A stretch of 28,984 bases of DNA from IMG/VR virus record IMGVR_UViG_3300032236_001746, positions 1-28,984 of that record; one strand, written 5' to 3'. This document shows positions 1,112-27,562 of the stretch, piece by piece. A program made the position numbers and the translations under genes. How positions within the stretch are numbered: the stretch's first letter is position 1; every line of letters starts with the position of its first letter. Under the pieces are notes generated by a model. That model was not told where the DNA came from and made no database searches. It saw only the letters and a program-made list of their open reading frames with translations. This stretch comes from a virus.

Positions 1112-1137
1112 GGACTAGTTAAAGCTAGTCCTTTTTT
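1112..1137 (+). terminator. Intrinsic terminator
   Basis: GGACTAG (1112-1118) pairs with CTAGTCC (1125-1131), followed by TTTTTT. It ends the plus-strand tRNA/YkuK/small-gene transcript. The stop codon of the convergent minus-strand gene (1125-1127) lies in its right arm. Confidence 0.85.
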
Positions 1138-1463
1138 ATTCGTAAATTTCCATCTGCTGGAGTAATTGGAACAATATCAGCACCGTCATTAAACGCCGCT
1201 TTGATTTCTAAAGATGTTTTCTTATAAACATTTTTCAAGAAATTGAAAATAGGTGTTGTCGCACTAGATGTGTTATGTGCTTTATAAACATTCGGATATA
1301 ACTCTTTTGGTGGATATATTGTATACACATTATTCTTTTGTTCAACTCTACAAGTTGTGTGTTTTTCAATCCACTTAATTAAATTAGTTAATTCCTTAGG
1401 ATTGTGTGGACCTAATTCATTTAACAATGTTTGATACTGAGATTCCGAAATAACTATTTTCAT
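1125..1463 (-). CDS. Probable internal head protein with targeting helix
   Basis: This 112-aa protein is not a recognised family. Its first 16 residues form an amphipathic helix, with IVISESQYQTLLNE leading to a possible cleavage site L14-N15-E16. The same kind of start is found on five other proteins in this window. In T4 such an N-terminal segment (capsid-targeting sequence) sends internal proteins into the prohead, where the protease cuts after [LI]-x-E. The mature part would be about 96 residues with several aromatic and basic positions (NVYTIYPPKELYPNVYK). The ATG sits 4 nt from a GATATTTATA box. The virion role is inferred; the shared N-terminal pattern is seen directly. Confidence 0.75.
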   Translation of the reverse strand: MKIVISESQYQTLLNELGPHNPKELTNLIKWIEKHTTCRVEQKNNVYTIYPPKELYPNVYKAHNTSSATTPIFNFLKNVYKKTSLEIKAAFNDGADIVPITPADGNLRIKKD

Positions 1464-1467
1464 AACA

Positions 1468-1477
1468 TATAAATATC
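1468..1477 (-). promoter_or_regulatory. TATTTAT box before the 1125-1463 gene
   Basis: On the minus strand this reads GATATTTATA, 4 nt before the ATG. It is one of about ten copies that lie in sense orientation upstream of genes in this window. It may be a phage promoter giving a nearly leaderless mRNA. Confidence 0.45.
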
Positions 1478-1513
1478 TTGTAATTTTCTTTTGGTATTAC
1501 AGTAAATTTTAAT

Positions 1514-1521
1514 TATATTTG
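1514..1521 (+). promoter_or_regulatory. Bacteroidota-type -7 box TATATTTG
   Basis: TATATTTG matches the Bacteroidota -7 consensus TAnnTTTG and lies 5 nt before the ATG of the metallophosphoesterase. If it is used, the mRNA would be leaderless or nearly so. No clear TTTG -33 box was identified. Confidence 0.45.
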
Positions 1522-1526
1522 TTACT

Positions 1527-2273
1527 ATGAGATTAGTATGTATATCAGATACCCACAGCATGCATCGCGAAATGTTACACGAATTACCAGAAGGTGATAT
1601 GTTAATACATTCTGGGGATATATCAAATAAGGGTGGTGAGAGAGACGTGACAGATTTTATTCATTGGCTTGAAGGGATAAAAGGATTTGATACTAAAATA
1701 TTCATATCTGGAAACCATGATTTTTGTTTTGAGAGAATTAGTTTACCTCACCATAAAAAGGAATACGATTGGTTACGTCATTTGATTGCACCAGAGAATT
1801 TATCTCAATCGGATATTGTTTATTTAGAGGACGAATCATTTACAATTGAAGATCCAGAATTTTCAAGACCAATTAAATTTTATGGTACACCTTGGCAACC
1901 TTGGTTTTATGATTGGGCTTTTAATCTACCAAGAATGGGTGATCAGTTAAGAGAAAAATGGAATATGATTCCAAATGATGTCGATGTATTGATAACACAT
2001 ACACCGCCAAATGGTATTAAAGATTATGTAATAAATTGGAGAGGAAATGAACATGTTGGTTGTGAGGTATTAAGAGCTAGATTAGAAGAAATAAGCCCAG
2101 CTGTGAATGTGTTTGGACATATCCATGAAGGATACGGTGTTTCTTATGTTAATAAAACAATGTTTGTAAATGCGTCGATTTGTACTGCTAGATACGAACC
2201 AATAAATAAACCTATCATTATTGATTTAACTGAAATTGATGGTGAAATAATTGCAACATATGTCGAAGAATAA
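1527..2273 (+). CDS. Calcineurin-like metallophosphoesterase
   Basis: This 248-aa protein carries all the motifs of the two-metal calcineurin-like phosphoesterase fold: D8-x-H10 in ISDTHS, G30-D31 in HSGDIS, GNHD at 62-65, H158 in LITHTPP, and GHIH at 197-200. The length and motif spacing are closest to the MPPED/UPF0046-type metallophosphatases common in Bacteroidota. It should hydrolyse a phosphomonoester or phosphodiester in the cytoplasm; the substrate cannot be told from sequence. Its 3' end overlaps the start of a glycosyltransferase gene by 14 nt, which suggests coupled translation. A link to nucleotide-sugar or glycan metabolism is possible but is only a context inference. Confidence 0.9.
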   Translation: MRLVCISDTHSMHREMLHELPEGDMLIHSGDISNKGGERDVTDFIHWLEGIKGFDTKIFISGNHDFCFERISLPHHKKEYDWLRHLIAPENLSQSDIVYLEDESFTIEDPEFSRPIKFYGTPWQPWFYDWAFNLPRMGDQLREKWNMIPNDVDVLITHTPPNGIKDYVINWRGNEHVGCEVLRARLEEISPAVNVFGHIHEGYGVSYVNKTMFVNASICTARYEPINKPIIIDLTEIDGEIIATYVEE

Positions 2274-2946
2274 CGAAGTAATAAGCGTGGTTATATCCAC
2301 AAGAAAAATTGATGATGAATATCTTAACCACGTTGAAAAGATGTTCTCACATCCTAATACTGAAATTTTAATTTATGAGAATGATGGTAGCCAATCATTA
2401 ACTGAAATTTACAATATTGGTTTAAGAGATTCTAAAAATGACATTGTTGTTTTCATGCATGATGATCTTATTTTGGAAACTCAAAATATGACACCTAAGA
2501 TTGTTAAATTATTTGATAAGCATCCTGATTATGGTATTATTGGTATTGCTGGTACGGATAAATTAGTAAGTGGTATGTGGTGGCAAAACCGTGAAAACAT
2601 GTTTGGTGTTGTTGGTCATATACATAATGGTAAAAGACACGTTAATCACTATTCTAAGGGCGTTTTTAACGATGTTCTTAAAAATGTGGTAATTGTGGAC
2701 GGTTTATTCTTTATGGTCCATAAAAAACGTATTAAAAAGAATTTCAACCAAGAGTTTGAGGGGTTCCATTTTTATGATATTTCTTTTTGTTTTGATAATT
2801 TTATGGAAGGTGTTAAAATTGGTGTTACAACCAAATTTTCAATAACACATAAATCAATTGGTATAACTAATAAAAAGTGGGAAAAGAATAAGTTATTTTT
2901 TGAGGCTTTATATTCACAATATTTACCACTAGAAGCTAAATCCTAG
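2260..2946 (+). CDS. GT-A type glycosyltransferase (GT2-like)
   Basis: This 228-aa protein has a GT-A start (ISVVISTRK), a central acidic triad FMHDD that fits the nucleotide-sugar and metal-binding DxD motif, and a later FHFYDISFCFD segment typical of glycosyltransferase-like family 2 proteins of the PF13712 type. The protein is short, with no membrane segment, so it is probably cytoplasmic. I chose the ATG at 2260 rather than the in-frame TTG at 2251. The gene overlaps the metallophosphoesterase. It is separate from the six-gene glycosyltransferase operon at 10.7-16.9 kb, making seven such genes in the window. Confidence 0.82.
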   Translation: MSKNNEVISVVISTRKIDDEYLNHVEKMFSHPNTEILIYENDGSQSLTEIYNIGLRDSKNDIVVFMHDDLILETQNMTPKIVKLFDKHPDYGIIGIAGTDKLVSGMWWQNRENMFGVVGHIHNGKRHVNHYSKGVFNDVLKNVVIVDGLFFMVHKKRIKKNFNQEFEGFHFYDISFCFDNFMEGVKIGVTTKFSITHKSIGITNKKWEKNKLFFEALYSQYLPLEAKS

Positions 2947-2972
2947 ACTTTAACTTTTAGTTGAATTAGGAT
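2940..2972 (+). other. Stem-loop spanning the glycosyltransferase stop codon
   Basis: ATCCTA (2940-2945) pairs with TAGGAT (2967-2972), and TTTAACT (2949-2955) pairs with AGTTGAA (2959-2965) around a TTT loop. No clean T-tract follows; instead the TATTTAT box of the next gene begins. It may be a weak terminator or an mRNA 3'-end stabiliser. Confidence 0.45.
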
Positions 2973-2981
2973 ATATTTATA
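2972..2981 (+). promoter_or_regulatory. TATTTAT box before the 2995 gene
   Basis: TATATTTATA is followed by TAAAAATA and lies 13 nt before the ATG. The stretch TATTTATATAAAAATA is identical to the one upstream of the ribbon-helix-helix gene (minus strand, around 17981). It is a candidate phage promoter. Confidence 0.45.
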
Positions 2982-2994
2982 TAAAAATACGTTT

Positions 2995-3249
2995 ATGAAA
3001 AAAATTATCGAATTAATTAAAAGTTTATTAGGTGGTGGATCAATTGCTGAAAAAGCTGCTGAATTAACACAACTTGAAACTGCTGTAGTTGAAGAGGTAA
3101 AAGAAGTTAAAACTAAAGTTGATACTGTTAAAGCTGAAGTTGCCGCTAAAGTTGCAGAAGTTGAAGCAAAGGTTGCTGAAGTAAAAGCTAAAGCTAAAAA
3201 ACCAGCTAAAAAAACTGCAGCAAAGAAAACAGCTAAAAAAGCTAAGTAA
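2995..3249 (+). CDS. Histone H1-like basic protein
   Basis: This 84-aa protein has three parts: a short amphipathic start (MKKIIELIKSLLGGGS), a heptad-like helical region rich in Ala, Glu and Val (residues 20-64, with repeats of the form KVAEVEAKVAEVKAK), and a tail dominated by Lys, Ala and Thr (PAKKTAAKKTAKKAK). The tail resembles bacterial and eukaryotic H1-type DNA-binding tails. It may bind phage DNA or be packaged with it; this is inference from composition. Low complexity means that similarity to other proteins can arise by chance. It has its own TATTTAT box and ends in a strong terminator. Confidence 0.75.
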   Translation: MKKIIELIKSLLGGGSIAEKAAELTQLETAVVEEVKEVKTKVDTVKAEVAAKVAEVEAKVAEVKAKAKKPAKKTAAKKTAKKAK

Positions 3250-3275
3250 TTAAATTAACACATATAGGTTATTAC

Positions 3276-3305
3276 GGGGTTAAATTTGTTTTTAACCCCT
3301 TTTTT
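3276..3305 (+). terminator. Intrinsic terminator
   Basis: GGGGTTAAA (3276-3284) pairs with TTTAACCCC (3291-3299), followed by TTTTTT. It separates the basic-protein gene from the tmRNA. Confidence 0.9.
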
Positions 3306-3308
3306 ATC

Positions 3309-3316
3309 TATATTTG
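3309..3316 (+). promoter_or_regulatory. Bacteroidota-type -7 box for the tmRNA
   Basis: TATATTTG fits TAnnTTTG and lies 11 nt before the predicted mature 5' end at 3328. A TTTG at about 3286-3289 is placed roughly where a -33 box would be. Host RNA polymerase could therefore transcribe the tmRNA early. Confidence 0.5.
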
Positions 3317-3327
3317 TAATATCATAT

Positions 3328-3734
3328 GGGGATGAAATTAGTATTGATTGACGACTGTATGGTAAATGGGCACGTAGTCAGATGTCATCTATGACTTTAA
3401 ACTATGGTGGTAAAAAACAAATGACAACGTTTATAACGTTATGGAAGCTTGTGGTTTAATCGCAACTTCTACTGTAGCTGTAGCCTAAGAGTAACACCTA
3501 CAAACGGGTCGGCGGACATATAACCTTGGAACAGAAGTCCTCACGGTGTAATACCACCCAAAGAGTGTTAAAGGTCTTGTTAGAGTAACTACCTAAAGTG
3601 AAACTCCCACAGTTATCGGTAATGATGGAAAAATAAGAACCGAATATTTGTCAGTTGTGAATAATTGAATAAACGTGTAGTCCATCTACGATATAACGGA
3701 CAAGACCGGAAGGCAGTATTCCGCATCTCCACCA
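3328..3734 (+). ncRNA. ssrA: Divergent tmRNA (transfer-messenger RNA)
   Basis: This 407-nt RNA has the tmRNA plan. The 5' GGGGATG (3328-3334) pairs with the 3' CATCTCC (3724-3730), followed by A and an encoded CCA. GATTGACGAC near the 5' end resembles the conserved tmRNA D-loop segment. A T-stem CGGAA/TTCCG (3707-3711 with 3719-3723) lies beside the acceptor. A tag reading frame begins about 96 nt in, at GAC 3423, and ends ...LIATSTVAVA then TAA at 3486-3488; E. coli resumes at nt 90. tmRNA rescues stalled ribosomes with SmpB and marks products for proteolysis. Oddities are a T-loop GGCAGTA without the usual TTC, and a long tag ending V-A instead of A-A. Promoter and terminator flank it. Confidence 0.85.
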
Positions 3735-3736
3735 AA

Positions 3737-3758
3737 GGGTCCATTAGGACCCTTTTTT
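3737..3758 (+). terminator. Intrinsic terminator of the tmRNA
   Basis: GGGTCC (3737-3742), loop ATTA and GGACCC (3747-3752) are followed by TTTTTT. It starts 2 nt after the encoded CCA. The stop codon of the convergent HNH gene lies inside the hairpin. Confidence 0.92.
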
Positions 3759-4286
3759 ATTTTTAATTATTATATTAATTAATTCATTAACCATATCATC
3801 CGTCATTGTGTTTTTCATCCAATTCATTGCTCTTGATACCCATCTAATATTTCCTTTAACGTATCCTTTAGAATTATCTATTCTATCCAATGATGCTGCA
3901 TATATTGGATTTTTTTCGATTTTTGTGTGAGATGAAAGAATTAATTTAACACCACTAAATTCACAAATACCATTTTGTAATTCCCATTGTTCTTTTAAAT
4001 CATCGATAGAAACATCAATAATTTGATTTCTTTTTTTAATATTCCTAAAATGATATCTATAAATTGTATATTCATCACCAAGTCTTTTATAACCTAACTT
4101 TGATAAATCAACTCTTTTTTCACCAAAATTTTTAAGATTATTTTTACCTACACAACTTCTTGAACAAAAATTTGGTCTATTTAATTTTTCATTCCTACGA
4201 ATTTCAGTAAGTGGTTTTTCAAATTCTACACCACAATTTTTACAAAAAGTCATACCCAATTTATAATGTTGTTTTTTCTTTTCCAT
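3744..4286 (-). CDS. HNH endonuclease with zinc ribbon
   Basis: This 180-aa protein has an N-terminal zinc-binding module (C15-x2-C18 and C41-x3-C45) and a C-terminal HNH-type core. In the core, C108 and S-G precede the pattern DRID (134-137), GYVKGN (141-146), W149-V and N155, as in free-standing phage HNH nucleases. It should make double-strand or nick cuts in DNA and may be a homing endonuclease that spreads its own gene. It lies convergent to the tmRNA and its stop codon is in the tmRNA terminator, so insertion beside an RNA gene is plausible. The ATG lies 4 nt from a GATATTTATT box. Confidence 0.85.
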   Translation of the reverse strand: MEKKKQHYKLGMTFCKNCGVEFEKPLTEIRRNEKLNRPNFCSRSCVGKNNLKNFGEKRVDLSKLGYKRLGDEYTIYRYHFRNIKKRNQIIDVSIDDLKEQWELQNGICEFSGVKLILSSHTKIEKNPIYAASLDRIDNSKGYVKGNIRWVSRAMNWMKNTMTDDMVNELINIIIKNKKGS

Positions 4287-4290
4287 ATAT

Positions 4291-4918: not shown

Positions 4919-7447
4919 TTATAATCTGGAACGGAGATGTTTTCCAACTATATTTTTTATAAAATCTTCTCTTAATTGTTGTGGTTCTGCTGCTGGTTGT
5001 GCTTCCTTATTTTTGATCCACACATATTTTTCATCAGCTTCCCCAGGAACATAATCTTTATCCTTTTGTTTCATGTATGAATAGCCTAATGTTTTTATGT
5101 ATTGATTAAGTGCATCAAGATCTTCTTGGCTTAATAATGAACCTTTATATTTCAATCTATCACCATCTTTTTTAATAAATGGTTTTGGTCTACCTTCTTT
5201 TTTATAATTGTCATATAAATTAGTGTAAATTGATAAACCTTTTTCAATTAGATTTTGTATCTCAGGTGTCTTTTCTTGTTCTTTATTTGCACTATCTTGT
5301 GTTTTAACCATATCAGCAACACGACTTGTTTGAGTTGATGTGTCGCCCGTTGTTGTTCCAGTTGTTGTCGCTGTAGTTCCAGTAGTAGTTGCTGTTGAGC
5401 CTGTTGTTGTACCTGTTGCTGTACCCGCACACATAGCCATTTGCTGGTCATAAAGAGCTTTATCTATCACCTTAGCATTACCAAGGAATGCTGATGTTGA
5501 AGGCCCAAATTTACCGTCCGCACCGCCTGTTAACTCAAACCCTCTTGAACCTATACATTCTTGTAATTTTTTAACATATGGTGAAATACAACCTAATTCA
5601 ATTGTGTCTCCATTATCTAAATTTTTACTACTACAATCATGATATTGGAAAGCAGAATCGTCTTTTTTATTTCCACCATCAGTAGTTGTTGTTGTTTGTC
5701 CACCTGCAGATTCACCATCCCAAGTAATTGACACATTAGATAAACCAGTAGTTGGATTGTTATCACCACCTACACCTGCTGATGCAATATCTAAAATTTC
5801 TTTTTTAAGTTCATAACCTTCAGCACCTAATGTGCTTGTACCGATTTCTTTAATCATTTCAACAAAATCATGACCAAATGTACCATGATACATTTCTAAA
5901 AATTGTGATACTGCATTTTTTCCTTTGTATGTCTTACCTGTTAAGATATGCATGATACCCACTAAATTTTTAAGATCACCTAATACAACCCAACCTCTTA
6001 CATTTGTTGCAGCATCATCAACATATTGATGCATTTGTTGTGGTGAAATCTCAGTTGCTTGTTCACTTAATGTTTCATCGCTTTCTTCTCCACCAGTTTC
6101 GGCATTACCAACTTGAAGTTGTTGTCCGTTACATGTATATGTTCCTCTTCTTTTATTGTTTTTGTAAAATACTCTACCATTTGGATAAAATAATAAACCA
6201 CCATTTGTGTCATACTCTTTATCTCCGGTATTCTTAACATAAATTACTGGATCACCACCAGATGTCACAGCAATTGTTGTTCCATTATCATCTAATAATG
6301 CTGATACACAAGGACCAAATGTTTTTACTTTTACAGTATCATTTGATTTTTTATACAAATAGTAAAATGCTGCAATACCTGCACCACCTAAAACTAATTT
6401 CCAAAAACCACCAATTTTAGGATAAGCTTTTTTCCATTTATCCCATCTACTACCTTTTGTATTTTCTTCAATAGCCGCTTTATTCTGTTTAAGATCATCT
6501 TCAATTTTAGTTATTGTTGTTGTACTTGCTTCAGTAGCAGTTGTTGCTGTTCCGGCAGCACCAGTTGTTGTTGCGCCTGCTGTTCCAGTTGCAGTTCCAG
6601 CACCTGGCTCTGGTGTTAAACCTTTTTTAGCATATTTTCCAGATTTAACATATTTTCTTTTAACGATCTCTTGTTTAACGGAAGCACCTTCACCAATCGC
6701 TTTGTTAATATTAATGTTAATATCACGACCAGCTGACATTCCTTTAGATGTAAAATAAGCTAACAATTCTTCTTCACTATTAATAATTCTACCTTCCAAT
6801 TGGAACGGCTTGAATTCATTAATCGCTTCAATATTACTAACACTATTACTTACATTTGCATCAACAGCGGTAGTAGCATCTTCACCAGCTGCCGCAGGAT
6901 TAACTTTAGTTGCCCCACGTTCAGCAATCATTTCATCAGCAATTAGTTTAGCTTCGCTTTCTGAATATGGACTTGAAAGACTTTTCAATTTACTAATAAT
7001 TTGTTCTCTAGTCATAGTAAGATATTCCGGAGCATCTTTCAATGCAAGACTAGCAATTGAACTAGCAGCTTTTTGTGCTAATTTAACGTTACCACTTCTA
7101 AGTAAACCTCTTTTTATTGTCCCAATACCAGCTGGTGCAATTGTACCAGCTTCTAAACTATGTATTAAGTCATCAACAGACGTTATTGTTTTTAAATTAA
7201 CATCTTTAATACCACCAAAACCAACATTTTTCAAAACATTTTCCAATGCTGTTCTTTCTGCTGGTGCTATATCTTTTAATCCTGTGGCTAATTCTTGACC
7301 TGCTTTTTCCCAAGTAGCAGCATCAGCTTCATTGATTACATTTTCTAAAATAATGTTATTTTCAACAATGTTTTCGTTTAAAGTTTTTGATGGTTCATAT
7401 TTCATCAAAAGTTTAACTCTTTCTAATATTATGTTCTTATTTTTCAT
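4919..7447 (-). CDS. Large probable virion protein with targeting helix and peptidoglycan-binding-like domain
   Basis: This 842-aa protein is of unknown family. Residues 1-40 form a signal-like helix with candidate cleavage sites at T-L-N-E25, N-I-V-E29 and V-I-N-E40. Helical segments follow, then a Thr/Ala/Gly-rich linker (about 285-315) and one hydrophobic segment (FWKLVLGGAGIAAFYYLYKK, about 345-365). After a variable middle part comes a segment resembling a peptidoglycan-binding domain (VKKLQECIGSRGF then GADGKFGPSTSAFL), a second Thr/Gly/Ala linker and a charged C-terminal end. The layout suits a protein carried in the virion that meets cell wall or membrane on entry, but that is inference. 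It is last in an operon with the 387- and 94-aa genes (spacings 4 and 6 nt). Confidence 0.78.
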   Translation of the reverse strand: MKNKNIILERVKLLMKYEPSKTLNENIVENNIILENVINEADAATWEKAGQELATGLKDIAPAERTALENVLKNVGFGGIKDVNLKTITSVDDLIHSLEAGTIAPAGIGTIKRGLLRSGNVKLAQKAASSIASLALKDAPEYLTMTREQIISKLKSLSSPYSESEAKLIADEMIAERGATKVNPAAAGEDATTAVDANVSNSVSNIEAINEFKPFQLEGRIINSEEELLAYFTSKGMSAGRDINININKAIGEGASVKQEIVKRKYVKSGKYAKKGLTPEPGAGTATGTAGATTTGAAGTATTATEASTTTITKIEDDLKQNKAAIEENTKGSRWDKWKKAYPKIGGFWKLVLGGAGIAAFYYLYKKSNDTVKVKTFGPCVSALLDDNGTTIAVTSGGDPVIYVKNTGDKEYDTNGGLLFYPNGRVFYKNNKRRGTYTCNGQQLQVGNAETGGEESDETLSEQATEISPQQMHQYVDDAATNVRGWVVLGDLKNLVGIMHILTGKTYKGKNAVSQFLEMYHGTFGHDFVEMIKEIGTSTLGAEGYELKKEILDIASAGVGGDNNPTTGLSNVSITWDGESAGGQTTTTTDGGNKKDDSAFQYHDCSSKNLDNGDTIELGCISPYVKKLQECIGSRGFELTGGADGKFGPSTSAFLGNAKVIDKALYDQQMAMCAGTATGTTTGSTATTTGTTATTTGTTTGDTSTQTSRVADMVKTQDSANKEQEKTPEIQNLIEKGLSIYTNLYDNYKKEGRPKPFIKKDGDRLKYKGSLLSQEDLDALNQYIKTLGYSYMKQKDKDYVPGEADEKYVWIKNKEAQPAAEPQQLREDFIKNIVGKHLRSRL

Positions 7448-7451
7448 ATTT

Positions 7452-8615
7452 TTAATAATCTACTCCTTTTTTAAATTGACCTGCTGTTGTTGGACCTAAT
7501 TTCTTCATTAATTCATCACTTGAATCGCCCCCCAACATACTACCAATATACTGTGACACTTTACCAATTGCACCACTATCTGCAGCACCAGTTATTGCAC
7601 TGGCAACACCAAATTGTTTAGCTGAACTTTTAACCGCTTGTTGTGTTGTACCTTTAATAGATTTAACACCAAATGATTCAATTATATCTGCAATATATTT
7701 TGTTGCTTTATCTAACATACTACCAACCCATTTCAATCCCATTTTTTCTGACATAAATTTTCCAGCATCAGTTAAAACACCTTTTGATTTAGATAAGATT
7801 GTAGTACCATTTTTTGTGATTGTTTGAGCCATTTCAGCTGTTCCTGGATTTGCTTTCAATTCTTGTACTACCTGACCTACACCTTTACCTTGCGTCTTAG
7901 CAAATAAACCAAGTCCTTTAACTTTTGTCATAAAAGCTTTTGCTAATCCTGAAAATGCTATCCCCAATACATCAGCAATTAAATTCATCCAATGAAATTC
8001 TTGATAATTTGTAAATGCTAAATATACATCATAAAGTGCCATAACACCCCAAGCAACACCAGTTACTATTGAACCAACACCAGTTGTGTTTAAGAATGTT
8101 TCAATAGCAATACCAACTGGATTATATAACATTTGTCTAAAGTCCTCAAAAAATGGTGAACATTTACCTCCAGTTATACAAGTCAAAAGGTCTTTTGCTG
8201 ATTTAACAGCAGTTGAACCAAATTCTTTAACTTTATCAACCATATACCCACCAGCAGACTTAACTTTATCAGCTGTCCAATTCCAAGCATCTGATAACCA
8301 ATTTTCCATTAAAACTGTTGATTCTGTAATTAATGTTCTACCGTATTTGTAATCAAATTCTAACATTAACTTAGTTTTCATATCAAAAGAAAAATTTTCC
8401 AGTAATTGATATGTAACTCTTCTTTGGTAATTTACGATTTCGTATATGTCAACTAACTTATTCTCATAAGCATAAATTGAATTTTCTTTAAGAATTTGTA
8501 AGCTTCTTTCTATTGAGAATTCACCCCAATTATATGATTTATCTTCAGCAAGTGAATAAATTCTTTCTTCGCTGACAAAATATAACCCATTTAATGAAAC
8601 CTTAAATAAACTCAT
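7452..8615 (-). CDS. Probable virion or membrane-active protein, unknown
   Basis: This 387-aa protein is not recognised. Residues 1-93 form a polar, aromatic-rich domain. Residues 95-105 (LITESTVLMEN) resemble the N-terminal targeting helix of its neighbours and offer a possible L-M-E cleavage site, so the first about 104 residues could be a long propeptide. A Cys pair follows (LLTCITGGKC), then hydrophobic segments (NPVGIAIETFLNTTGVGSIV and WGVMALYDVYLAF, about 165-205). The rest is helical, rich in Gly, Ala and Lys. It might insert in membranes. It lies between the 94-aa and 842-aa genes in one operon, so the three products probably act together. Confidence 0.72.
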   Translation of the reverse strand: MSLFKVSLNGLYFVSEERIYSLAEDKSYNWGEFSIERSLQILKENSIYAYENKLVDIYEIVNYQRRVTYQLLENFSFDMKTKLMLEFDYKYGRTLITESTVLMENWLSDAWNWTADKVKSAGGYMVDKVKEFGSTAVKSAKDLLTCITGGKCSPFFEDFRQMLYNPVGIAIETFLNTTGVGSIVTGVAWGVMALYDVYLAFTNYQEFHWMNLIADVLGIAFSGLAKAFMTKVKGLGLFAKTQGKGVGQVVQELKANPGTAEMAQTITKNGTTILSKSKGVLTDAGKFMSEKMGLKWVGSMLDKATKYIADIIESFGVKSIKGTTQQAVKSSAKQFGVASAITGAADSGAIGKVSQYIGSMLGGDSSDELMKKLGPTTAGQFKKGVDY

Positions 8616-8621: not shown

Positions 8622-8906
8622 TTAATTTAATGGATTTCCTTTACCTCTCTTTAATGAACTTCCAACAACGTCTTCCCATTTTGTAACATCTACTTGATTA
8701 GCGGGTCCTCTTGATACACCACTCTCCCATTTATCAACAGTTGGATATCCTTGACCTCCACCAGTTGACCCTGAAGATGTACCAGATTCTGGAGCCGCAC
8801 TTGCAGCTGCTTCTGGTGATCCTGCGGCGTCAGTTGTTTCACCCTGTTCAGTAACTTCTTTAGATAAAATAAGTTTTAGTTGTTTTTCAGTTAATAATAA
8901 ATCCAT
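8622..8906 (-). CDS. Small probable internal head protein with targeting helix
   Basis: This 94-aa protein starts with the helix MDLLLTEKQLKLILSKEVTE, which ends in a possible cleavage site V18-T19-E20 followed by Gln. The remaining part is disordered in appearance, rich in Ala, Ser, Gly and Glu (residues 21-57), and ends in a short region with Trp and Lys (DVTKWEDVVGSSLKRGKG). The product looks like a cleaved, flexible internal protein. It is the first gene of the operon with the 387- and 842-aa genes, and its ATG lies 4 nt from a GATATTTATG box. Confidence 0.72.
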   Translation of the reverse strand: MDLLLTEKQLKLILSKEVTEQGETTDAAGSPEAAASAAPESGTSSGSTGGGQGYPTVDKWESGVSRGPANQVDVTKWEDVVGSSLKRGKGNPLN

Positions 8907-8910: not shown

Positions 8911-8920
8911 CATAAATATC
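8911..8920 (-). promoter_or_regulatory. TATTTAT box before the virion operon
   Basis: On the minus strand this reads GATATTTATG, 4 nt before the ATG at 8906. It would drive the 94-, 387- and 842-aa genes. Confidence 0.45.
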
Positions 8921-17023: not shown

Positions 17024-17383
17024 ATGTTAATGAATATGAGTAAAATTTACCAACCGATTGTTTTAGAGTATGTTGAACACTTAATTTTAGGGTTAGAAGA
17101 ATCTAATTTCTTCGATGATTATGAAATAGAAGATTTAACATTTATCAGGGAGCATTTATCTGGTATTCTAACTGAAAAATTTATTGAGGGTACTTTAGAA
17201 GGTGAATTTGAGGAAATATTCACGGAAGATGAATTTGAGTTATTGTTAAAAGAAATGATTGCAGGATCTATACTGTATGAATTGAAAGACAAATCTTTGG
17301 TCAATTCAGTTGAAGACCAGGACGGGGAAGAAGTGTTTTTCTTAACCGAAGAGGGTAAAAAATATCTAAAATCTTTAGATTAA
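17024..17383 (+). CDS. Acidic protein with winged-helix-like C-terminus
   Basis: This 119-aa protein is strongly acidic. Residues 1-75 are helical (LEYVEHLILGLEESNFFDDY and later FEEIFTEDEFELLLKEM). The last 40 (ILYELKDKSLVNSVEDQDGE, then EVFFLTEEGKKYLKSL) read like the recognition helix and wing of a winged-helix domain, as in MarR-like proteins whose C-terminal part often has LTEEGKKYL. A regulatory role is possible, but the acidity argues against simple DNA binding and it could be a DNA mimic. Three in-frame ATGs lie within five codons; I took the first. The stop overlaps the convergent gene by 4 nt. Confidence 0.65.
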   Translation: MLMNMSKIYQPIVLEYVEHLILGLEESNFFDDYEIEDLTFIREHLSGILTEKFIEGTLEGEFEEIFTEDEFELLLKEMIAGSILYELKDKSLVNSVEDQDGEEVFFLTEEGKKYLKSLD

Positions 17384-17712
17384 ACTTTTTTCTTTTCGTC
17401 TACTTGCTGTGCGTACGCACCTTTCTTATGTTGTCTAATTTTTTCCTTTAGTTGTTTAACTAATTTGTGTGCACCAGATAGGTTATTAGAAATTCCAGAA
17501 ACTCTACCGTTAGATACCGTTTTAAGGCCGTCAGGAAGCGAATTTTCAAGCTTTCTAAATTCCTTAAGGGTTTCTATCAATGAATTCTCAAGTTCCTCTA
17601 ATCTGAATTGAACGCGACTATAATCATCTCTTTTAACTTTAGATGCTTCTTCGTTCAATACCTGAAAAACTAAATCTTTTATAATATTTTCTGAAATTGT
17701 TTGTTTTTCCAT
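17380..17712 (-). CDS. Coiled-coil protein with targeting helix
   Basis: This 110-aa protein starts with TISENIIKDLVFQVLNE, ending in a possible cleavage site L19-N20-E21 followed by Glu, as in five other proteins here. After that comes a long charged helical stretch (QFRLEELENSLIETLKEFRK), a small break (LPDGLKTVSNGRVSG) and a basic helical end (KLVKQLKEKIRQHKKG). It may be an internal head protein or an assembly factor. It starts 1 nt after the stop of the ribbon-helix-helix gene, so the two are co-translated. That pairing is unusual and could mean that the RHH protein also associates with DNA in the head. Confidence 0.7.
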   Translation of the reverse strand: MEKQTISENIIKDLVFQVLNEEASKVKRDDYSRVQFRLEELENSLIETLKEFRKLENSLPDGLKTVSNGRVSGISNNLSGAHKLVKQLKEKIRQHKKGAYAQQVDEKKKV

Positions 17713-17980: not shown

Positions 17981-17990
17981 TATAAATATT
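17981..17990 (-). promoter_or_regulatory. TATTTAT box before the RHH gene
   Basis: On the minus strand this reads AATATTTATA, then TAAAAATA, 15 nt before the ATG at 17965. The 16 nt TATTTATATAAAAATA match the element before the gene at 2995. Confidence 0.45.
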
Positions 17991-20639: not shown

Positions 20640-20675
20640 AAAAAAAAGGGAGATTAAAAAATCCCCCCTCTTTTT
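20640..20675 (-). terminator. Bidirectional intrinsic terminator
   Basis: GGGAGATT (20648-20655) pairs with AATCCCCCC (20660-20668) with one mismatch. A minus-strand T-tract (eight T) and a plus-strand TTTTT flank it. It should end the small exported protein gene. Confidence 0.75.
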
Positions 20676-20979
20676 ATTGATCTAAATGTTCTTCCATCAT
20701 TTGACGAAAACGACCACGAGGTCTTTCTCTATATTGGAATATTTTTGTTTCAACAATCTCAGGTCTTAATTTTTGGAAATCTGATTTATTAAAAATTAAA
20801 ATTACTTTATCACCTTTAACAATTACTTTTTCTGGTTTTGGATGAAAAGGAAAATGATGTGACGCAAATTCTGGTCTTTGGTGTTCTTTTTGGAATTTAA
20901 CATAATCAGCGAATTGATTTTGTGAGAATGCTGCAAATGATGTAATCATCAATAACGCAACAAAAAGTGTTTTTTTCAT
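20674..20979 (-). CDS. Small exported protein, unknown
   Basis: This 101-aa protein has a clear signal peptide (MKKTLFVALLMITSFAAFSQ, with cleavage likely before Q20 or Q22). The mature part is basic and rich in His, Pro, Phe and Arg (RPEFASHHFPFHPKPEKV), followed by a strand-like segment (VIVKGDKVILIFNKSDF) and an Arg-rich helical C-terminus (FQYRERPRGRFRQMMEEH). No family is recognised. It lies between the nuclease operon and the TonB-dependent receptor on the same strand, each with its own terminator, and adds to a block of envelope-directed genes. Confidence 0.75.
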   Translation of the reverse strand: MKKTLFVALLMITSFAAFSQNQFADYVKFQKEHQRPEFASHHFPFHPKPEKVIVKGDKVILIFNKSDFQKLRPEIVETKIFQYRERPRGRFRQMMEEHLDQ

Positions 20980-21107: not shown

Positions 21108-21125
21108 ATCGTATTGGCGTACGAT
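21108..21125. repeat. Short inverted repeat at the receptor 3' end
   Basis: ATCGTA (21108-21113) and TACGAT (21120-21125) flank TTGGCG and touch the receptor stop codon. It could be a weak operator or an edge mark of an inserted segment. It is short, so chance is possible. Confidence 0.3.
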
Positions 21126-24100
21126 TAGTTAAACAAATATTTCACACCAATTTGCATTTGCCATCTTGAACCAATACTTGTTGAGTTTTGGAATGGTTGA
21201 ACAAATGGAGTTGTTCCTGTTTGATAAGGGAATGAGAATGATGGTGTTTTACCGTCAGCAGCTAAACCTTCATATTTCAAGAAGTTAGTAACTGTTGCGT
21301 ATTTAACCACACCCCAATCTCTATTGATAAAGTTACCAGCGTTAATTAAATCATAAGAAATCTTAACTGTGTGTTGTGCACCGACAACTTTAACTTTCAA
21401 TTCTTGTGTAACATTTAAATCTAATCTACTGAAGTAAGGTAACACAGTAGCATTTCTACCAGCGTATTGACCTCTATGTGTATTCAAGTATGTTGAATTA
21501 GAAATAAATGCATCTAATTGAGACCATATTTGTGCTGCAGTTCTTGTATCTGTAACACCTGCTGTTCCTGTACCTAAACCACCTGAACCAACTTTAACTA
21601 AATTGATATCAGCAGCTGTTTTAGGAATATAAATCAAGTCATTACCTGAATTACCATCACCGTTTAAATCCCCGTTATAAACATATGATGTAACACCAGC
21701 GTTAGCTAATTCATATATTGCACCAATTGTTGTAGCTAAATGCTTACCTTCATTGATCTTATATGCTAAATTTGCAATAACTCTGTTTGGTTGATAATAT
21801 GATGCGAACCCTAAGTTAGCAGCATTTGGATCTTGATTTGCAACTGGTGCAGCACTCCATAAAGAAGATGCTGTACTTCCACCTTCAGCAGTGTTTTTAG
21901 CTACTGAATATGTGTAAGCAACACCATAAGTTAAATTCTCAATACTTCTTTGCACTCTACCTGTTAATGTGTAAACATAACCTTGATTAGTATTACTCAT
22001 TAAAATTGCATTACCAATATTAGGATTTGCTAAGGTAGTACCGTAGTAATATTTGTTTGTGTTAGCAACTGAAGTTAAGAAACGAGTTCTTGCATCAGCA
22101 CCTGCTAAAGCGAAACCATTACTTTCGTTTAAGTTTACATTAGAATAGTATACTGCGTTGATATCTTTTGTATATGTGTATTCAGCACCTACAACCCAAC
22201 CATTTTCTAACTTCTTATCAATTGCGATATTTGATTTCCAAGCAGTTGGATATTTGAAGTTATTAGCAACTAACGCTGTACTATATGATGTGTTTGCAGC
22301 ACCAGCAGTTGGTCTATATGCGTTAGGATCAACATTAAATGCTTTATTAGCTACAGTAAATGATCCGAATTGAATACCATTGTTAGATGCTTGGTTAGAA
22401 ATCCAAACAAATGGAGGAGGACCTGCAAAAATACCTGTACCACCGCGAACTTGTAATGTTTTGTCGCCATTTGGATTCCAGTTGAAACCAGCTCTAGGAG
22501 AAACTAACAAGTTGTTCATTGGAGCAACTCCGATGTTATATGTTTGTCCGTTTGCGAATTTCAACGCATCGAAATAAGGGTTATCTGTCATTGATTGCTT
22601 GTAGATAGTTTCATCCAATCTAACACCATAAGTTAATGTTAAATTAGTTGTTGGTCTCCACTTATCTTGAACAAATTGAGATAACTCAGTTGAACCAGCA
22701 TAAGCCCATGGGAAATCACCACCTGGTAATGCTGAATATTGTAAGTAATATGATTTTGCGTTAGCTAATCCATTGTTTGCTGAATTGTAAAAATCAGTTA
22801 AACTATTGAATTGGTATACACCTTGGTAACCTGGTGCAAACGCATTTTGATATTTCTTATATGAATTTTGTGTACCAATTGTAAATTCATGAGATCCCTT
22901 ATAATAAGTTAAGATGTCATTGAATTGATAAACATCTGTGTTTAACTTGTTATTATAGGTATACATCTCATAACCAAATGTAGTATAAATGTTACCATTG
23001 TTTAAGATATCAACCAACGGCATAGTACTACTTGTAGAATGCGGTGAACGATAATCTTTCAATTGTGTTAAACCAATTTGTAATTTGTTTGATAACTTGT
23101 TGTTAAATCTAGTGTTTAACTCACCAATTAAGATGTTAAAGTTATTGTTAATTACGTATCCACTACCATAGAATGGCATTGAATATGTACCTGGTTGACC
23201 ACCTGTAACTTGACCACTACCTGGTCTTGAAGTTGATGCAAACTGATCTGCGAATGACTTCAAGTAATTATACTTCAATGTGAAAGTATTTTTACTGTTA
23301 ATATTCCAATCTAATTTTGCAGTGATCTTATCAGAATAAGTCTTGAATGTATATCCTTGGAATGCACCTGGATCATAACCAAACTTACTCTTTAAGAAAT
23401 TAGACAAAGCAGCTAAAGTATCTGCATTAGCTTGTGAATATACCCCACCAGCAGCATGTGTAGCATCTGAAGCTAACATAGTTGTAGCAGGAGCATCTTG
23501 TCTAACTTGTTCTGCACTTACGAAGAAGAATAATTTGTTTTTAATGATTGGACCACCTAAAGTAGCACCTTTGATTGAATAAGTGAAAGGTGTTTTAGCT
23601 AAAGTTGTTGCACCAACATTATAACCTTGATTATCTTGGTTCTTCATATATTCATAATAAGAACCCTTAAATTGGTTAGTACCACTCTTGGTAATGGTAT
23701 TGATACCTGTTCCAGCAAACCCACCTAATTTAACGTCATATGGTGATACATTTACTTGGATTTGTTCGATAGCCTCTAAAGATACTGGTTGAGCACCTGT
23801 TTGACCACCTAAGATAGAAGATAAACCAAATGAGTTATTGAAGTTTGCACCATCAATAGTCATATTGTTATATTGGTTACTTCTACCACCAATGTTTAAT
23901 CCGTTTGCTGTTGGCTCCAATTTTACGAAATCTTGGATTGAACGGTTAATTGTTGGTAAACGGTCGATTTGAGATCTACTGATCAATTCCTGTGAACCCG
24001 TTCTTGAGTTGTTGAAAATTTTGTCATTTCCTGACTTTACAACCACATCCTTCAATGATGTTGTCGATTGTACCAACTCAAAGTTTTGTTTGTAAACTTG

Positions 24101-24397
24101 ACCTACAACTAATGATATCTCATCTTCTGTTGCTGGTTTATAACCAACAAAAGATACTGATACTGTGTAAGGTCCACCGATTTTTACGTTTGGTAAGTTA
24201 TAACGACCATCTTGACGTGTTGTGGTCTTATAAACTGTACCAGTAGGTGTGTGCAGAGCAGTAATCACTGCGCCCGCTAATTTGTCTTTTCCCGAAGAAA
24301 CCGTACCTTGAATTTCTGACGTTGTCTCTTGGGCCATTGCACTTAAACCTATCAACATAGATAAGGATAAAAGCAATTTACCGATTGTTTTTTTCAT
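21125..24397 (-). CDS. TonB-dependent outer-membrane receptor (Oar/SusC-like)
   Basis: This 1090-aa protein is a full-length TonB-dependent transporter. It has a signal peptide (MKKTIGKLLLSLSMLIGLSA, then MAQ, with cleavage near A22-Q23) and a carboxypeptidase-regulatory-like beta domain (28-110). A plug follows (about 120-240, with NMTIDGANFNNSFG and IEQIQVNVSPYDVKLGG), then a long 22-strand-type barrel that ends in QMQIGVKYLFN. The plug and barrel resemble the Oar group of Bacteroidota. It would import a large ligand in the outer membrane using TonB energy. I chose the ATG at 24397; the longer frame adds an unlikely 33 residues before the signal peptide. A Bacteroidota-type promoter box lies upstream. 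By eye it is less AT-rich than its neighbours, in keeping with capture from a host. Confidence 0.93.
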   Translation of the reverse strand: MKKTIGKLLLSLSMLIGLSAMAQETTSEIQGTVSSGKDKLAGAVITALHTPTGTVYKTTTRQDGRYNLPNVKIGGPYTVSVSFVGYKPATEDEISLVVGQVYKQNFELVQSTTSLKDVVVKSGNDKIFNNSRTGSQELISRSQIDRLPTINRSIQDFVKLEPTANGLNIGGRSNQYNNMTIDGANFNNSFGLSSILGGQTGAQPVSLEAIEQIQVNVSPYDVKLGGFAGTGINTITKSGTNQFKGSYYEYMKNQDNQGYNVGATTLAKTPFTYSIKGATLGGPIIKNKLFFFVSAEQVRQDAPATTMLASDATHAAGGVYSQANADTLAALSNFLKSKFGYDPGAFQGYTFKTYSDKITAKLDWNINSKNTFTLKYNYLKSFADQFASTSRPGSGQVTGGQPGTYSMPFYGSGYVINNNFNILIGELNTRFNNKLSNKLQIGLTQLKDYRSPHSTSSTMPLVDILNNGNIYTTFGYEMYTYNNKLNTDVYQFNDILTYYKGSHEFTIGTQNSYKKYQNAFAPGYQGVYQFNSLTDFYNSANNGLANAKSYYLQYSALPGGDFPWAYAGSTELSQFVQDKWRPTTNLTLTYGVRLDETIYKQSMTDNPYFDALKFANGQTYNIGVAPMNNLLVSPRAGFNWNPNGDKTLQVRGGTGIFAGPPPFVWISNQASNNGIQFGSFTVANKAFNVDPNAYRPTAGAANTSYSTALVANNFKYPTAWKSNIAIDKKLENGWVVGAEYTYTKDINAVYYSNVNLNESNGFALAGADARTRFLTSVANTNKYYYGTTLANPNIGNAILMSNTNQGYVYTLTGRVQRSIENLTYGVAYTYSVAKNTAEGGSTASSLWSAAPVANQDPNAANLGFASYYQPNRVIANLAYKINEGKHLATTIGAIYELANAGVTSYVYNGDLNGDGNSGNDLIYIPKTAADINLVKVGSGGLGTGTAGVTDTRTAAQIWSQLDAFISNSTYLNTHRGQYAGRNATVLPYFSRLDLNVTQELKVKVVGAQHTVKISYDLINAGNFINRDWGVVKYATVTNFLKYEGLAADGKTPSFSFPYQTGTTPFVQPFQNSTSIGSRWQMQIGVKYLFN

Positions 24398-24437
24398 TTT
24401 TGTTTTGTTTTTGAAATTTATTGCAGATGTTAAAATA

Positions 24438-24455
24438 TACGGAAAAAAATCCGTA
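24438..24455 (-). promoter_or_regulatory. Hairpin in the receptor 5' leader
   Basis: TACGGA (24438-24443) and TCCGTA (24450-24455) flank AAAAAA; on the minus strand the loop is TTTTTT. It lies between the -7 box and the ATG of the receptor gene and may control mRNA stability or transcription of the receptor. Confidence 0.45.
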
Positions 24456-24493
24456 AAGTGAAAAATTGTTAAAGAATTTAACGTTTTACCCAT

Positions 24494-24501
24494 CAAAAAT
24501 A
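24494..24501 (-). promoter_or_regulatory. Bacteroidota-type -7 box for the receptor
   Basis: On the minus strand TATTTTTG fits TAnnTTTG. With a start site a few bases downstream, it gives a leader of about 90 nt before the ATG at 24397. This differs from the short-leader TATTTAT boxes of most phage genes and suggests host-type transcription. Confidence 0.55.
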
Positions 24502-24621
24502 ACTACCATATATATGCTAAAAAAGTCGTATTTTAACGTCTCCTAAATTAGGGGTTGAAACTTTTTACGTTTTATCATATTGTTAAAGGGAAAAAGTTTA
24601 AAATTATTTTATTGTTATCAA

Positions 24622-24631
24622 AGTATTTATA
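24622..24631 (+). promoter_or_regulatory. TATTTAT box before the 24637 operon
   Basis: AGTATTTATA lies 5 nt before the ATG at 24637. It would drive the 24637, 24977 and 25337 genes. The spacing is like that of the minus-strand virion genes. Confidence 0.45.
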
Positions 24632-24636
24632 TAGTG

Positions 24637-24975
24637 ATGTCAAATGATTATACTTCTTTATGGGCGGTATTAGGTACTGCAGTTACTGTTCTTGGCTCTG
24701 CAAGTGCTTGGAGATACTATGAAAAGCGTGCTATGCATAAGGAAAAGGATGAAGATTTCATTAGACATGATTGTAAAGACCGTATCGCCAAATTAGAAGC
24801 ATTATTGGAATATTCCGGTAAAGAAAAGGACGAACTTAGATCTATGATATTAGATTTAACTAAAAAAGTAGCTGAACTTAAAGTTACTGTAGATTTTCTT
24901 AGAAATGAAAACCTTAAATTAGAAAGTTCATTAATTAAAAAACCAAAAACAACAAGAACCCCTAAAACAAAGTAA
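24637..24975 (+). CDS. Membrane-anchored coiled-coil protein
   Basis: This 112-aa protein has one N-terminal membrane segment (SLWAVLGTAVTVLGSASAW, residues 7-25), a basic flank (RYYEKRAMHKEK) and then a long charged coiled coil (KDRIAKLEALLEYSGKEKDE and onward) with a basic C-terminal tail (KKPKTTRTPKTK). This layout resembles an inner-membrane spanin or another lysis-cascade protein, or a membrane anchor for virion assembly, but no family was recognised. I chose the ATG at 24637 because it gives the membrane segment close to the start; a longer frame from 24580 lacks support. It is followed 1 nt later by the 115-aa virion-like gene. Confidence 0.68.
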   Translation: MSNDYTSLWAVLGTAVTVLGSASAWRYYEKRAMHKEKDEDFIRHDCKDRIAKLEALLEYSGKEKDELRSMILDLTKKVAELKVTVDFLRNENLKLESSLIKKPKTTRTPKTK

Positions 24976-24976
24976 T

Positions 24977-25324
24977 ATGAAAAAATATATATTCACAGAA
25001 AATCAAATAAAAACTATTATTGATTCTCAAATCAACGAACAAACTTTTGTTGATGATCAAACAGCAGCAATTAACGCTGGTACTAAAGCATTTTTAGATG
25101 CTAAGAAAATCCAAGGAAAAGATTTAACAGAAAGAATTAAAAATTATCAGTTAACAATTCCAAATTGTAAACCAACTGGTCATATGTTAGATTGTAAAGG
25201 TATGTTACCTGAAGCTGACAAAAAATTATGGCAATCACTAATAAATCAAAATAAGCCTTTTTATGATAAAGCACTTGATTGGTTTAACAGCATGTTAGGT
25301 TTAGGTCCAGGAAGTGGATATTAA
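24977..25324 (+). CDS. Probable internal head protein with targeting helix
   Basis: This 115-aa protein is of unknown family. It starts with KKYIFTENQIKTIIDSQINE, ending in a possible cleavage site I19-N20-E21 followed by Gln, as in the other proteins of this set. The mature part would be about 94 residues with two Cys (PNCKPTGHMLDCKG) and a C-terminal segment DWFNSMLGLGPGSGY. It lies 1 nt after the membrane coiled-coil gene and 12 nt before the 741-aa gene, so the three are probably made together late in infection. Confidence 0.72.
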   Translation: MKKYIFTENQIKTIIDSQINEQTFVDDQTAAINAGTKAFLDAKKIQGKDLTERIKNYQLTIPNCKPTGHMLDCKGMLPEADKKLWQSLINQNKPFYDKALDWFNSMLGLGPGSGY

Positions 25325-25336
25325 TTTTATTTACAA

Positions 25337-27562
25337 ATGAATATAGAAGAATATATTAAAAGTTTATTAAGCGAACAAGACGACGATAATAATGTTCAAC
25401 AACAAGAACCAGAACGTCTTGGCGATATTGTTATTCCCGAAGAATTCAAAAAAGTTAAATTAGACGAAAATGACGTTAATTTACAATATTGTATTAAAAA
25501 ATGGAAAGCACAAAAAAGCAATCTAACAGATAAACAAGCGTATTATCTTTACAAAGCTTGGTTAGTTTATGTTAAACCTAGATTGAATAACATGACTAAT
25601 CAACCTGAGTTTCTTACGTTTTTTATCAGATACGTAAAGCAGAATAACAATGGTTTATTCCCATCATTACCAGGAAACGAATACGAGAAAAGAACAATTC
25701 TTAAAGAATTATTTAATGTAAAATATACAAAAGCTGAATTAGCATTAAAGCAACCAGGTGCAACAGAAGCACTTAAAAAAGCTATTAAAAATGATTTAGC
25801 TGAATATGAATTTGGTTCTATTGAGGAAAGAGATGAAAATGGTAAAGTGATTATGATCCAAAAGAAAGATGCCGCTGGTAATCCTTTATTTTTGGGTAAC
25901 GGTAAACCTCAAATGATTGCTAAAAGAAAACCATTTATTTGGATTACATCAAAAATGCGAATAGCATTAGAAAATGCTGTTAATAAAGATCGTGCGATTG
26001 GACCTTATTTTGATAAAATGAAAGATCCAAAAAATTATTCATTAGATCAAATTAACTTTTTAGTTGCTGAATTTTGGGTTGAACTTATTAGAACAGCAGA
26101 AGGTCAAACACAACAAAGAACTAGAGATAAATCAACCTTAGTTAAATCTGATGCTAATGTTGAAATGTCTCGTAATTTACAAAGTAATTTAGATTCTAAT
26201 GATTTAGTTTGGAAAAGTGGTGATGGTAAAATTAGAATTTACGATATTAAAGATCAATGGTCTAGTATTGAATATGGTTTCTATTTTGAGAAAGCCGGTC
26301 TTGAAATGGTTAGACTTGAAAGAAATGGTATAATCGTTAACAAACCAGCAAATGACGATAGATTAATGGAATGGTGTGTAACTAAATTACCACCATCTGG
26401 TTATTATTCGTCATATAGAACTGGTGAAAAAGCATATAAGTTTTATCTTTTAGTTAATGATAACTATAACTTTATGTCAATGAGTCCTGAAGAATTGAAA
26501 AATTTACCAATAGATTCACCATTACGTCAATGGAACAATGCAATCAATTATGGTAATATGATTTGTTTGCAAAAAGATACCGAAGCTGGTAAAAGCTCTA
26601 GTATGATTGTGTGTGACTTAAGAGATAGAGAAATAAATAGAGACTGGTCTTGGATCGAAAGTAATTTCCCAGGATTAACAAAAGAAATTGCTGGTCAAAG
26701 TTTATTTTACAAACCATTCTCTAAAGCTGAACTTGTTGATCCAGATGATAAAAAAAGTTCTTATGTTAATGACATCGATGGTGAAAACTTTTTTGGTGCC
26801 GCTTCACAAAGAGACAAATCAATTTTCATTAGAGGTACACATGACGAATATAGAGGTAGATGGAGTAGAGGTACAATAACTAGTGTTGATACATGGAGAA
26901 CATTAAGTGATGATAACAAAAAAGCTTATATCACTCAAACAGATAACAGATCACAAGCATTAGATAAATTTAAAAACTTATTAATATTTGAGGAAATTAG
27001 ATATGACTCAGATATCTACGGTCAGTTTGTTAATACATTCAATCAACTTGATTCTAGAGAACCAGGTACATTAGACGCTGTTAAAAATCAAATGCTTTCT
27101 GACACATATATTACAGATGAAGTTTGGAGATATTCTATTAAAAATAAAAATATTAAATTGTTACAACAAAAAAACAACAGAGATTTTTACAACTTAATTA
27201 ATGTTGATACATGTAGCAAATTAGTGACTCCAACACAAGAATATATTTCTGACTATACATTCACACACACATTTATATTCTTAAATGGTGATGATGATAA
27301 TCAATACATTGCAGAAAAATATGATTCATCATTAGGATCAGACGCACCGGATACATTATGGGCGATATATGACTCAGGAAGTGATCATTGTTACTTCTTA
27401 AACAAGAAATCATTTGAGAAATGTATAGATGAAGGTATTATTGAAATACCAGATCTAGATGATGCTGCAGAAGGTGTTCCTGGTTCAATTAAACTAGGAT
27501 CATTCAAGAATAGAGAAGAAGTTTTTGAGAATAAAAAACTAAATAAAAAAGGGACTAAATAA
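25337..27562 (+). CDS. Large probable virion protein with targeting helix
   Basis: This 741-aa protein is of unknown family. Its start (MNIEEYIKSLLSE) closely resembles T4 internal-protein targeting sequences (M-x-x-Y-x-x-F-I-x-E); a cut after L11-S12-E13 is likely. The rest is a soluble, mixed alpha/beta protein with many Asp, Lys, Trp and Tyr (SKMRIALENAVNKDRAIGPY; ENFFGAASQRDKSIFIRGTH; SVDTWRTLSDDNKKAYI). No catalytic motif was recognised. At about 80 kDa it is large enough to be an enzyme injected with the genome, as for T4 Alt, but this is speculative. A terminator follows, with the stop codon inside its hairpin. Confidence 0.75.
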   Translation: MNIEEYIKSLLSEQDDDNNVQQQEPERLGDIVIPEEFKKVKLDENDVNLQYCIKKWKAQKSNLTDKQAYYLYKAWLVYVKPRLNNMTNQPEFLTFFIRYVKQNNNGLFPSLPGNEYEKRTILKELFNVKYTKAELALKQPGATEALKKAIKNDLAEYEFGSIEERDENGKVIMIQKKDAAGNPLFLGNGKPQMIAKRKPFIWITSKMRIALENAVNKDRAIGPYFDKMKDPKNYSLDQINFLVAEFWVELIRTAEGQTQQRTRDKSTLVKSDANVEMSRNLQSNLDSNDLVWKSGDGKIRIYDIKDQWSSIEYGFYFEKAGLEMVRLERNGIIVNKPANDDRLMEWCVTKLPPSGYYSSYRTGEKAYKFYLLVNDNYNFMSMSPEELKNLPIDSPLRQWNNAINYGNMICLQKDTEAGKSSSMIVCDLRDREINRDWSWIESNFPGLTKEIAGQSLFYKPFSKAELVDPDDKKSSYVNDIDGENFFGAASQRDKSIFIRGTHDEYRGRWSRGTITSVDTWRTLSDDNKKAYITQTDNRSQALDKFKNLLIFEEIRYDSDIYGQFVNTFNQLDSREPGTLDAVKNQMLSDTYITDEVWRYSIKNKNIKLLQQKNNRDFYNLINVDTCSKLVTPTQEYISDYTFTHTFIFLNGDDDNQYIAEKYDSSLGSDAPDTLWAIYDSGSDHCYFLNKKSFEKCIDEGIIEIPDLDDAAEGVPGSIKLGSFKNREEVFENKKLNKKGTK

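Follow-up and report, generated by a model that had tools for sequence, protein, structure and literature searches.

Why should six genes of one viral genome fragment, encoding proteins with nothing else in common, begin with look-alike peptides? The fragment, referred to here as the window, is the whole 28,984-base stretch of IMG/VR record IMGVR_UViG_3300032236_001746. An earlier note on its sequence named six open reading frames (1125, 4919, 8622, 17380, 24977 and 25337, after their first coordinates) and proposed that a common N-terminal signal, ending at a cleavage site of the T4 gp21 type, directs their products into the phage head. All six frames are present, beside 30 other window genes, and the absence of any other similarity among their proteins was upheld. 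Comparison of sequences makes it probable that these start peptides belong to a T4-type capsid-targeting propeptide system that is lineage-specific and of unusual scale.

Each of the six start peptides, hereafter tags, ends at an h-x-E site (h, a hydrophobic residue): LNE16 in 1125, LNE25 in 4919, VTE20 in 8622, LNE21 in 17380, INE21 in 24977 and LSE13 in 25337. Among the first 30 residues, a strict [LIV][NST]E tripeptide is present in 6/6 named genes but in 3/30 of the remaining genes of the window (p=4e-5 by Fisher's test); for internal 30-mers the rate is 6.8%. The peptides ahead of the site follow more than one motif, with four genes in class I, one in class II and 25337 in neither. The class I tag, MK-hhh-[ST]E-x-Q-h-K-x-[IL][IL], is carried by 1125, 8622, 17380 and 24977. 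The window contains the DNA pattern for its core, [ST]E-x-Q-x-[KRQ..]-x-h-h, three times, always at the start of a named gene; dinucleotide shuffles give an expectation of 0.19, and three or more occurrences were reached in 0 of 100 shuffles. With a position-specific score matrix (PSSM) trained on other phages, every N-terminus of the window outside class I scored below -5, and the top internal score was 11.1.

The individual assignments can be compared with a relative, G012 (335,630 bases), whose positions 62,241-89,656 are collinear with the window in inverted orientation; most genes are common to both, typically at 50-84% identity. Confidence is high for three class I tags: MKIVISESQYQTLLNE|L of the 112-aa protein (gene 1125-1463; tag 1416-1463, minus strand; PSSM 22.3), MDLLLTEKQLKLILSKEVTE|Q of the 94-aa protein (gene 8622-8906; tag 8847-8906, minus strand; PSSM 24.4), which is kept together with LGE|Q in the G012 orthologue, and MKKYIFTENQIKTIIDSQINE|Q of the 115-aa protein (gene 24977-25324; tag 24977-25039, plus strand; PSSM 23.1), whose G012 orthologue has a 6-residue insertion within the tag and still keeps h-x-E|QT..DDQ. 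The 110-aa protein (gene 17380-17712) carries the class I tag MEKQTISENIIKDLVFQVLNE|E (17650-17712, minus strand), which scores 5.7 and whose assignment is good through the G012 orthologue, which starts MEKQIITENQVKNILDKILME and scores 26.5. Equally good is the placement of the 842-aa protein (gene 4919-7447) in class II, since its tag, ..RVKLLMKYEPSKTLNE|N (7373-7447, minus strand), follows a recurrent pattern described below. The 741-aa protein (gene 25337-27562) begins with MNIEEYIKSLLSE|Q (25337-25375, plus strand), and its G012 homologue with MNIRDLVYDVIVEE. This start had been called very close to the T4 capsid-targeting sequence (CTS); it does resemble short T4-like tags, but it is the weakest of the six and is assigned with moderate confidence.

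Beyond the window, the degenerate DNA pattern M-K-x-h-h-[ST]-E-x-Q-h-K-x-h-h was found in at least 120 IMG/VR stretches; the same codons in permuted order matched 9 stretches, and 257 Gb of bacterial and archaeal genomes yielded 13 matches to the class I pattern, which marks the tag as genuine and virus-specific. Translated, the IMG/VR matches prove to be the beginnings of genes whose products otherwise differ greatly: 101 complete tagged proteins fell into 51 clusters with, among the matches listed, no detectable similarity beyond residue 22. Their alignment gives the consensus MKIIITExQLKxLI, several residues of which were preset by the search pattern, with nothing conserved after it; M1, K2, E7, Q9 and K11 are invariant in the pattern-selected members. 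A matrix census of records G012, G018 and G025, with genes called by a simple first-ATG rule, placed 80 of 1,214 N-termini above the 0.1% internal threshold, where 1.2 were expected. A few of the training sequences originate in these records, a small overlap, and the un-iterated matrix already found 53 N-termini. The earlier note had raised the prospect of finding the pattern in clearly non-virion proteins; the class I tag is absent from 26 replication and metabolism homologues and occurs in 0 of 56 late or early core genes. It is likewise missing from immuto, crAss001 and the T4 stretch tested, with one marginal match in Mel-JY01, and class I therefore appears lineage-specific. A tblastn search with the 20-residue consensus tag gave no match, the query being too short.

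Class I is one of several tag types. Class II, LLMxYDxxKTLxEN, was found in 90 IMG/VR stretches, mostly at protein residues 12-30, with LLM-Y-KTL-EN invariant in A3. The two classes go together: the class I pattern is contained in 9/13 records selected by class II (42 matches) and in 0/20 control records picked by a random 15-mer. Short starts form class IV and include MKLMDLLTEN and MKLLDIIFEN of G012; the regular expression MK.{1,4}[DE]hh.E picks out 9 starts in G012, where 0.56 are expected, and its matches in the T4 stretch tested are IPII and IPIII and no others (0.05 expected). The set of candidate packaged proteins is larger and more varied than was seen at the outset, with several tag classes and many tags that have no nearby cleavage site. 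In the cultured Flavobacterium phage immuto (NC_055915), the neighbouring genes at 117631 and 118632 begin MADNFNLRSFLTENKLTKNAQLLKE and MENFDLKKFLVENKLTTNSKILKE, ending in h-x-E; these repeated starts are a possible further tag class in a T4-type phage.

Tagged genes also share an upstream box. TATTTAT is present in the 45 nt ahead of 48/80 class I genes, 18/30 late genes (60%), 1/26 early genes (4%) and 206/1,078 others (tagged vs early, p=1e-7), late genes being homologues of the immuto terminase, portal, protease, scaffold and tail genes, and early genes homologues of replication and metabolism genes. In G012, G018 and G025 the box sits at one of two preferred distances ahead of the start codon, about -11 to -14 or -19 to -24. 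We regard TATTTAT, from its distribution, as a candidate late promoter; it is the reverse complement of part of the T4 late element, TATAAATA. Each tagged gene of the window belongs to a transcription unit headed by such a late-type box: 1469-1475 (minus strand) for 1125, at -12; 8912-8918 (minus strand) for the unit 8622 > 7452 > 4919; 17982-17988 (minus strand) for 17714 > 17380; and 24624-24630 (plus strand) for 24637 > 24977 > 25337, the ATG of whose first gene is at 24637.

The sites at which the tags end are placed in register. Matches to [LIVMF]-x-E after the tag cluster at fixed distances and fall at residues 12-22 in 47/80 tagged genes, compared with 23% of untagged genes; further in, there is no difference. 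Gln at P1' is enriched about 8-fold at tag sites, and class II tags end in [TSN]E|N in most cases. A tag ending at an [LIV]-x-E site was found in 6/6 named window genes, 49/51 clusters and 53/80 census genes. All three class I pairs compared between the window and G012 keep h-x-E while P2 differs, INE|Q becoming LQE|Q (with the 6-residue insertion), LNE|E becoming LME|D and VTE|Q becoming LGE|Q. The capsid proteins of the tagged records carry sites of the same kind: when 19 distinct gp23-like proteins are aligned with T4, residue E65 of the T4 site (FLTE|A) falls opposite the Glu of YLINE|A, HLINE|A, ALLSE|A or LVTE|T. INE, LSE and VTE are the same tripeptides as the ends of window tags. The proteases of these phages have an N-terminal ILIE or LLIE aligned to LLIE of T4 gp21, which cleaves itself after LIE-9 (PMC9026906). 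Beside the G012 capsid gene, a further protein is encoded that varies in its propeptide and then has a conserved junction, L[NTHQ]E|AEYQGRKVQLGK (G012:127141-127536 and G025:140250-140621, also in L023, L032, L038, L048 and L101), which by its sequence is likely a second cut site.

G012 encodes both a Peptidase_S77 of the T4 gp21 family (G012:122913-123596) and Gp23, so the gp21-like prohead protease that the earlier note suggested looking for is present, with a gp23-type capsid protein, in the nearest relative, syntenic with the window. Among 31 large tagged records, S77 was found in 21 and an above-cut-off Gp23 match in 20, the two mostly lying only a few kb apart; by our own arithmetic (about 6.1 Mb in the 31 records, genomes of about 300 kb), some 20 copies are expected if each phage has one. 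In the 269-kb record G027 (locus L181) both the gp21-type protease and the gp23-type capsid protein are present twice, at 31,291-34,946 and 233,494-237,899; the record is either a phage with two head cassettes or a joined contig.

The late-gene box shared with virion genes, the matching capsid and protease sites, and gp21 and gp23 in G012 all point to capsid targeting, and the proposed head packaging with gp21-type cleavage is supported by cleavage-site tripeptides identical to the tag ends. Tagged proteins would be made late in infection together with virion proteins. Their amphipathic start peptides, of about 12-25 residues, may dock them in the scaffold core of the growing T4-type prohead, and the prohead protease would trim the tags during maturation. 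By analogy with T4, the trimmed proteins would be present in the virion and injected. Several observations weigh against this interpretation. The matrix scores of 25337 and 17380 are weak, and the window itself contains neither a protease gene nor a capsid gene. S77 was also found in 6/20 random control records, none with the tag pattern; as many large phages have T4-type heads, its co-occurrence alone is modest evidence. Finally, 27/80 census tags lack [LIVMF]xE between residues 12 and 24, so targeting and cleavage may not always be coupled, or some tags may do something else.

Such another function could be that of a recruitment helix whose target is not the prohead but something such as a replication site, a phage chaperone or the ribosome, with the nearby h-x-E incidental or only sometimes used. 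The 27 tags without a nearby site would fit it, among them the paralogue family MKYLITESQIDNVIFKYLDNQDF... at G018:1186-3547 and 285715-293080, in which the tag is present with no h-x-E nearby. Against a recruitment helix stand the placement of the sites, in tight register and peculiar to tagged starts, their match to the sites of the capsid proteins and proteases of the same phages, the late-type box that tagged genes have in common with virion genes, and cargo like known head-borne proteins. In T4, moreover, Asp at position 10 stops processing but not targeting (PMC9026906); the two are separable there, which makes uncut tags compatible with packaging but does not account for them. We consider the recruitment helix unlikely.

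It is far less probable that the 5' ends spread at the DNA level, a promoter and first codons being captured together, and that the peptide is functionless. Tagged genes do share TATTTAT at two preferred distances and lie in gene-rich variable regions. However, tag codons vary, broadly following genome usage, which argues that the peptide and not the DNA is what is kept, and differing tag classes replace each other on one mature domain: 42/89 domain clusters are mixed, and the RMGGAKKI family, for example, has class I tags in L062, L077 and L099 and short-class ones in L063, L109, L117 and G012. The box also precedes untagged late genes, and 24977, 25337 and 17380, which lie inside operons, have no box of their own. 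Codon variation and tag swaps led us to reject this explanation. Chance likeness of short, AT-rich, Lys/Glu-rich helices, to which the shortness of the window peptides and the two weak scores might speak, is the least credible of all and is refuted for classes I and II by the shuffled, codon-permuted, internal-position, random-record and bacterial-genome controls, though it may hold for 25337 taken alone.

How does capsid targeting here compare with known systems? In T4, the first 10 amino acids of IPIII suffice for packaging foreign proteins, and gp21 then removes them (PMC9958956, PMC9026906). Like the CTS of T4 internal proteins IPI-IPIII, the tags are short N-terminal peptides on unrelated late proteins and end in h-x-E; the S77 protease is homologous, the gp23 capsid protein has an aligned cleavage site, and the class IV tag MKLMDLLTE resembles T4 MKTYQEFIAE. 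In contrast, the main classes (MKIIITESQLKKLI.. and LLMxYDxxKTLxEN) have other sequences, dozens of genes per genome are tagged rather than a handful, several classes are interchangeable, and many tags have no nearby cut site. No recognizable likeness links the main tags to the T4 CTS (MKTYQEFIAE family): the class I matrix picks no T4 gene from the stretch tested, and T4 IPII and IPIII are picked up together with G012 genes only by the short class IV expression. As far as sequence can tell, the system works like the T4 CTS, with homologous protease and capsid protein, while its main tag sequences are not recognizably related and its number of tagged genes is much larger. The giant phages phiKZ and SPN3US likewise process many head and ejection proteins, cutting after [S/A]-x-E (PMC5694885, PMC10052503), but with an S80 protease, propeptides mostly longer than 100 residues and no shared tag; the phages studied here have a T4 gp21-like (S77) protease. 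In phage P1, an N-terminal stretch of at most 30 aa of DarB is enough to bring a reporter into the head, and one tagged protein here has a DarB-like PHROG domain; unlike our tags, the Dar proteins have no shared N-terminal consensus (PMC9024508).

The tagged phages appear to form a family of very large viruses that infect Bacteroidetes in lakes and the sea; predicted hosts include freshwater Flavobacterium. In G012 and relatives, the order TerL, portal, protease, major capsid protein, a small basic reverse-strand ORF that looks bS21-like by eye, and sizes up to about 330 kb match the bS21-encoding freshwater Bacteroidetes jumbo phages of Chen et al. (2022, PMC9723584), in whose consulted passages no mention of such N-terminal tags was found. 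Nor was a description of the tag system found in the open-access literature searched.

The proteins behind the tags elsewhere include an ECF sigma factor, an SLT transglycosylase with peptidoglycan-binding and GDSL domains, lysozymes, LysM proteins and a cell-wall hydrolase. For an 836-aa tagged protein the PHROG matches are to DarB-like antirestriction, minor head and virion structural proteins, for a second one the match is an internal virion protein with an endolysin domain, and class II proteins often have a peptidoglycan-binding domain. Proteins of such kinds are known or predicted in virions (PMC5512222, PMC9024508). ADP-ribosyltransferase-like sequences were recognized by eye only (L010:2154-3014, L010:3585-4127 and G012:48155-48676). 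We lean slightly towards the broader view that the tags constitute a general cargo-loading code, in which interchangeable N-terminal tags put about 15-35 proteins per genome into the head, some tags being kept and most cut, so that the tag alone would predict the injected proteome; its cargo would comprise peptidoglycan hydrolases, the ECF sigma factor, polyvalent or antirestriction domains and candidate ADP-ribosyltransferases. For most genes of uncultured jumbo phages no function is known. Should the tag indeed mark cargo of the head, one short pattern would suffice to read from metagenomic sequence which proteins enter the host at the first moment of infection, and so which ones uncultured viruses carry and inject; the T4 cargo-loading principle would then recur in another phage lineage, built anew with other tag sequences and at a much larger scale.

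Several window proteins deserve separate mention. Between two tagged genes of one transcription unit lies the gene for a 387-aa protein with hydrophobic Gly-rich segments (7452-8615, minus strand). Its internal ITESTVLMEN, already remarked upon, is real, being part of a tag-like segment at residues 95-107; some homologues have a similar segment at the same place, and others have class I-like N-terminal tags. AlphaFold models of this protein with 7 homologues and of the 741-aa protein alone had mean confidence scores (pLDDT) of 41 and 35, inadequate for a fold search. Pfam and PHROG searches with the tagged window proteins gave only noise-level matches, and for the 741- and 842-aa proteins neither back-translation in IMG/VR nor tblastn in INPHARED turned up a close relative. 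The 94-aa protein is fused to about 575 extra residues in G012:78819-80828, and the motif at its C-terminus, KWESGVxRGxANQ..KWxDVVGSxLxRGKxNPL, is seen again at 33 loci close to class II genes. At 21125-24496 (minus strand) the window encodes a 1,123-aa outer-membrane beta-barrel protein of the TonB-dependent receptor type, Bacteroidetes-style, with carboxypeptidase-regulatory and plug domains, beside a small secreted protein at 20674-20979 (minus strand). The syntenic stretch of G012 has neither, and the pair is either unusual phage cargo or acquired host DNA.

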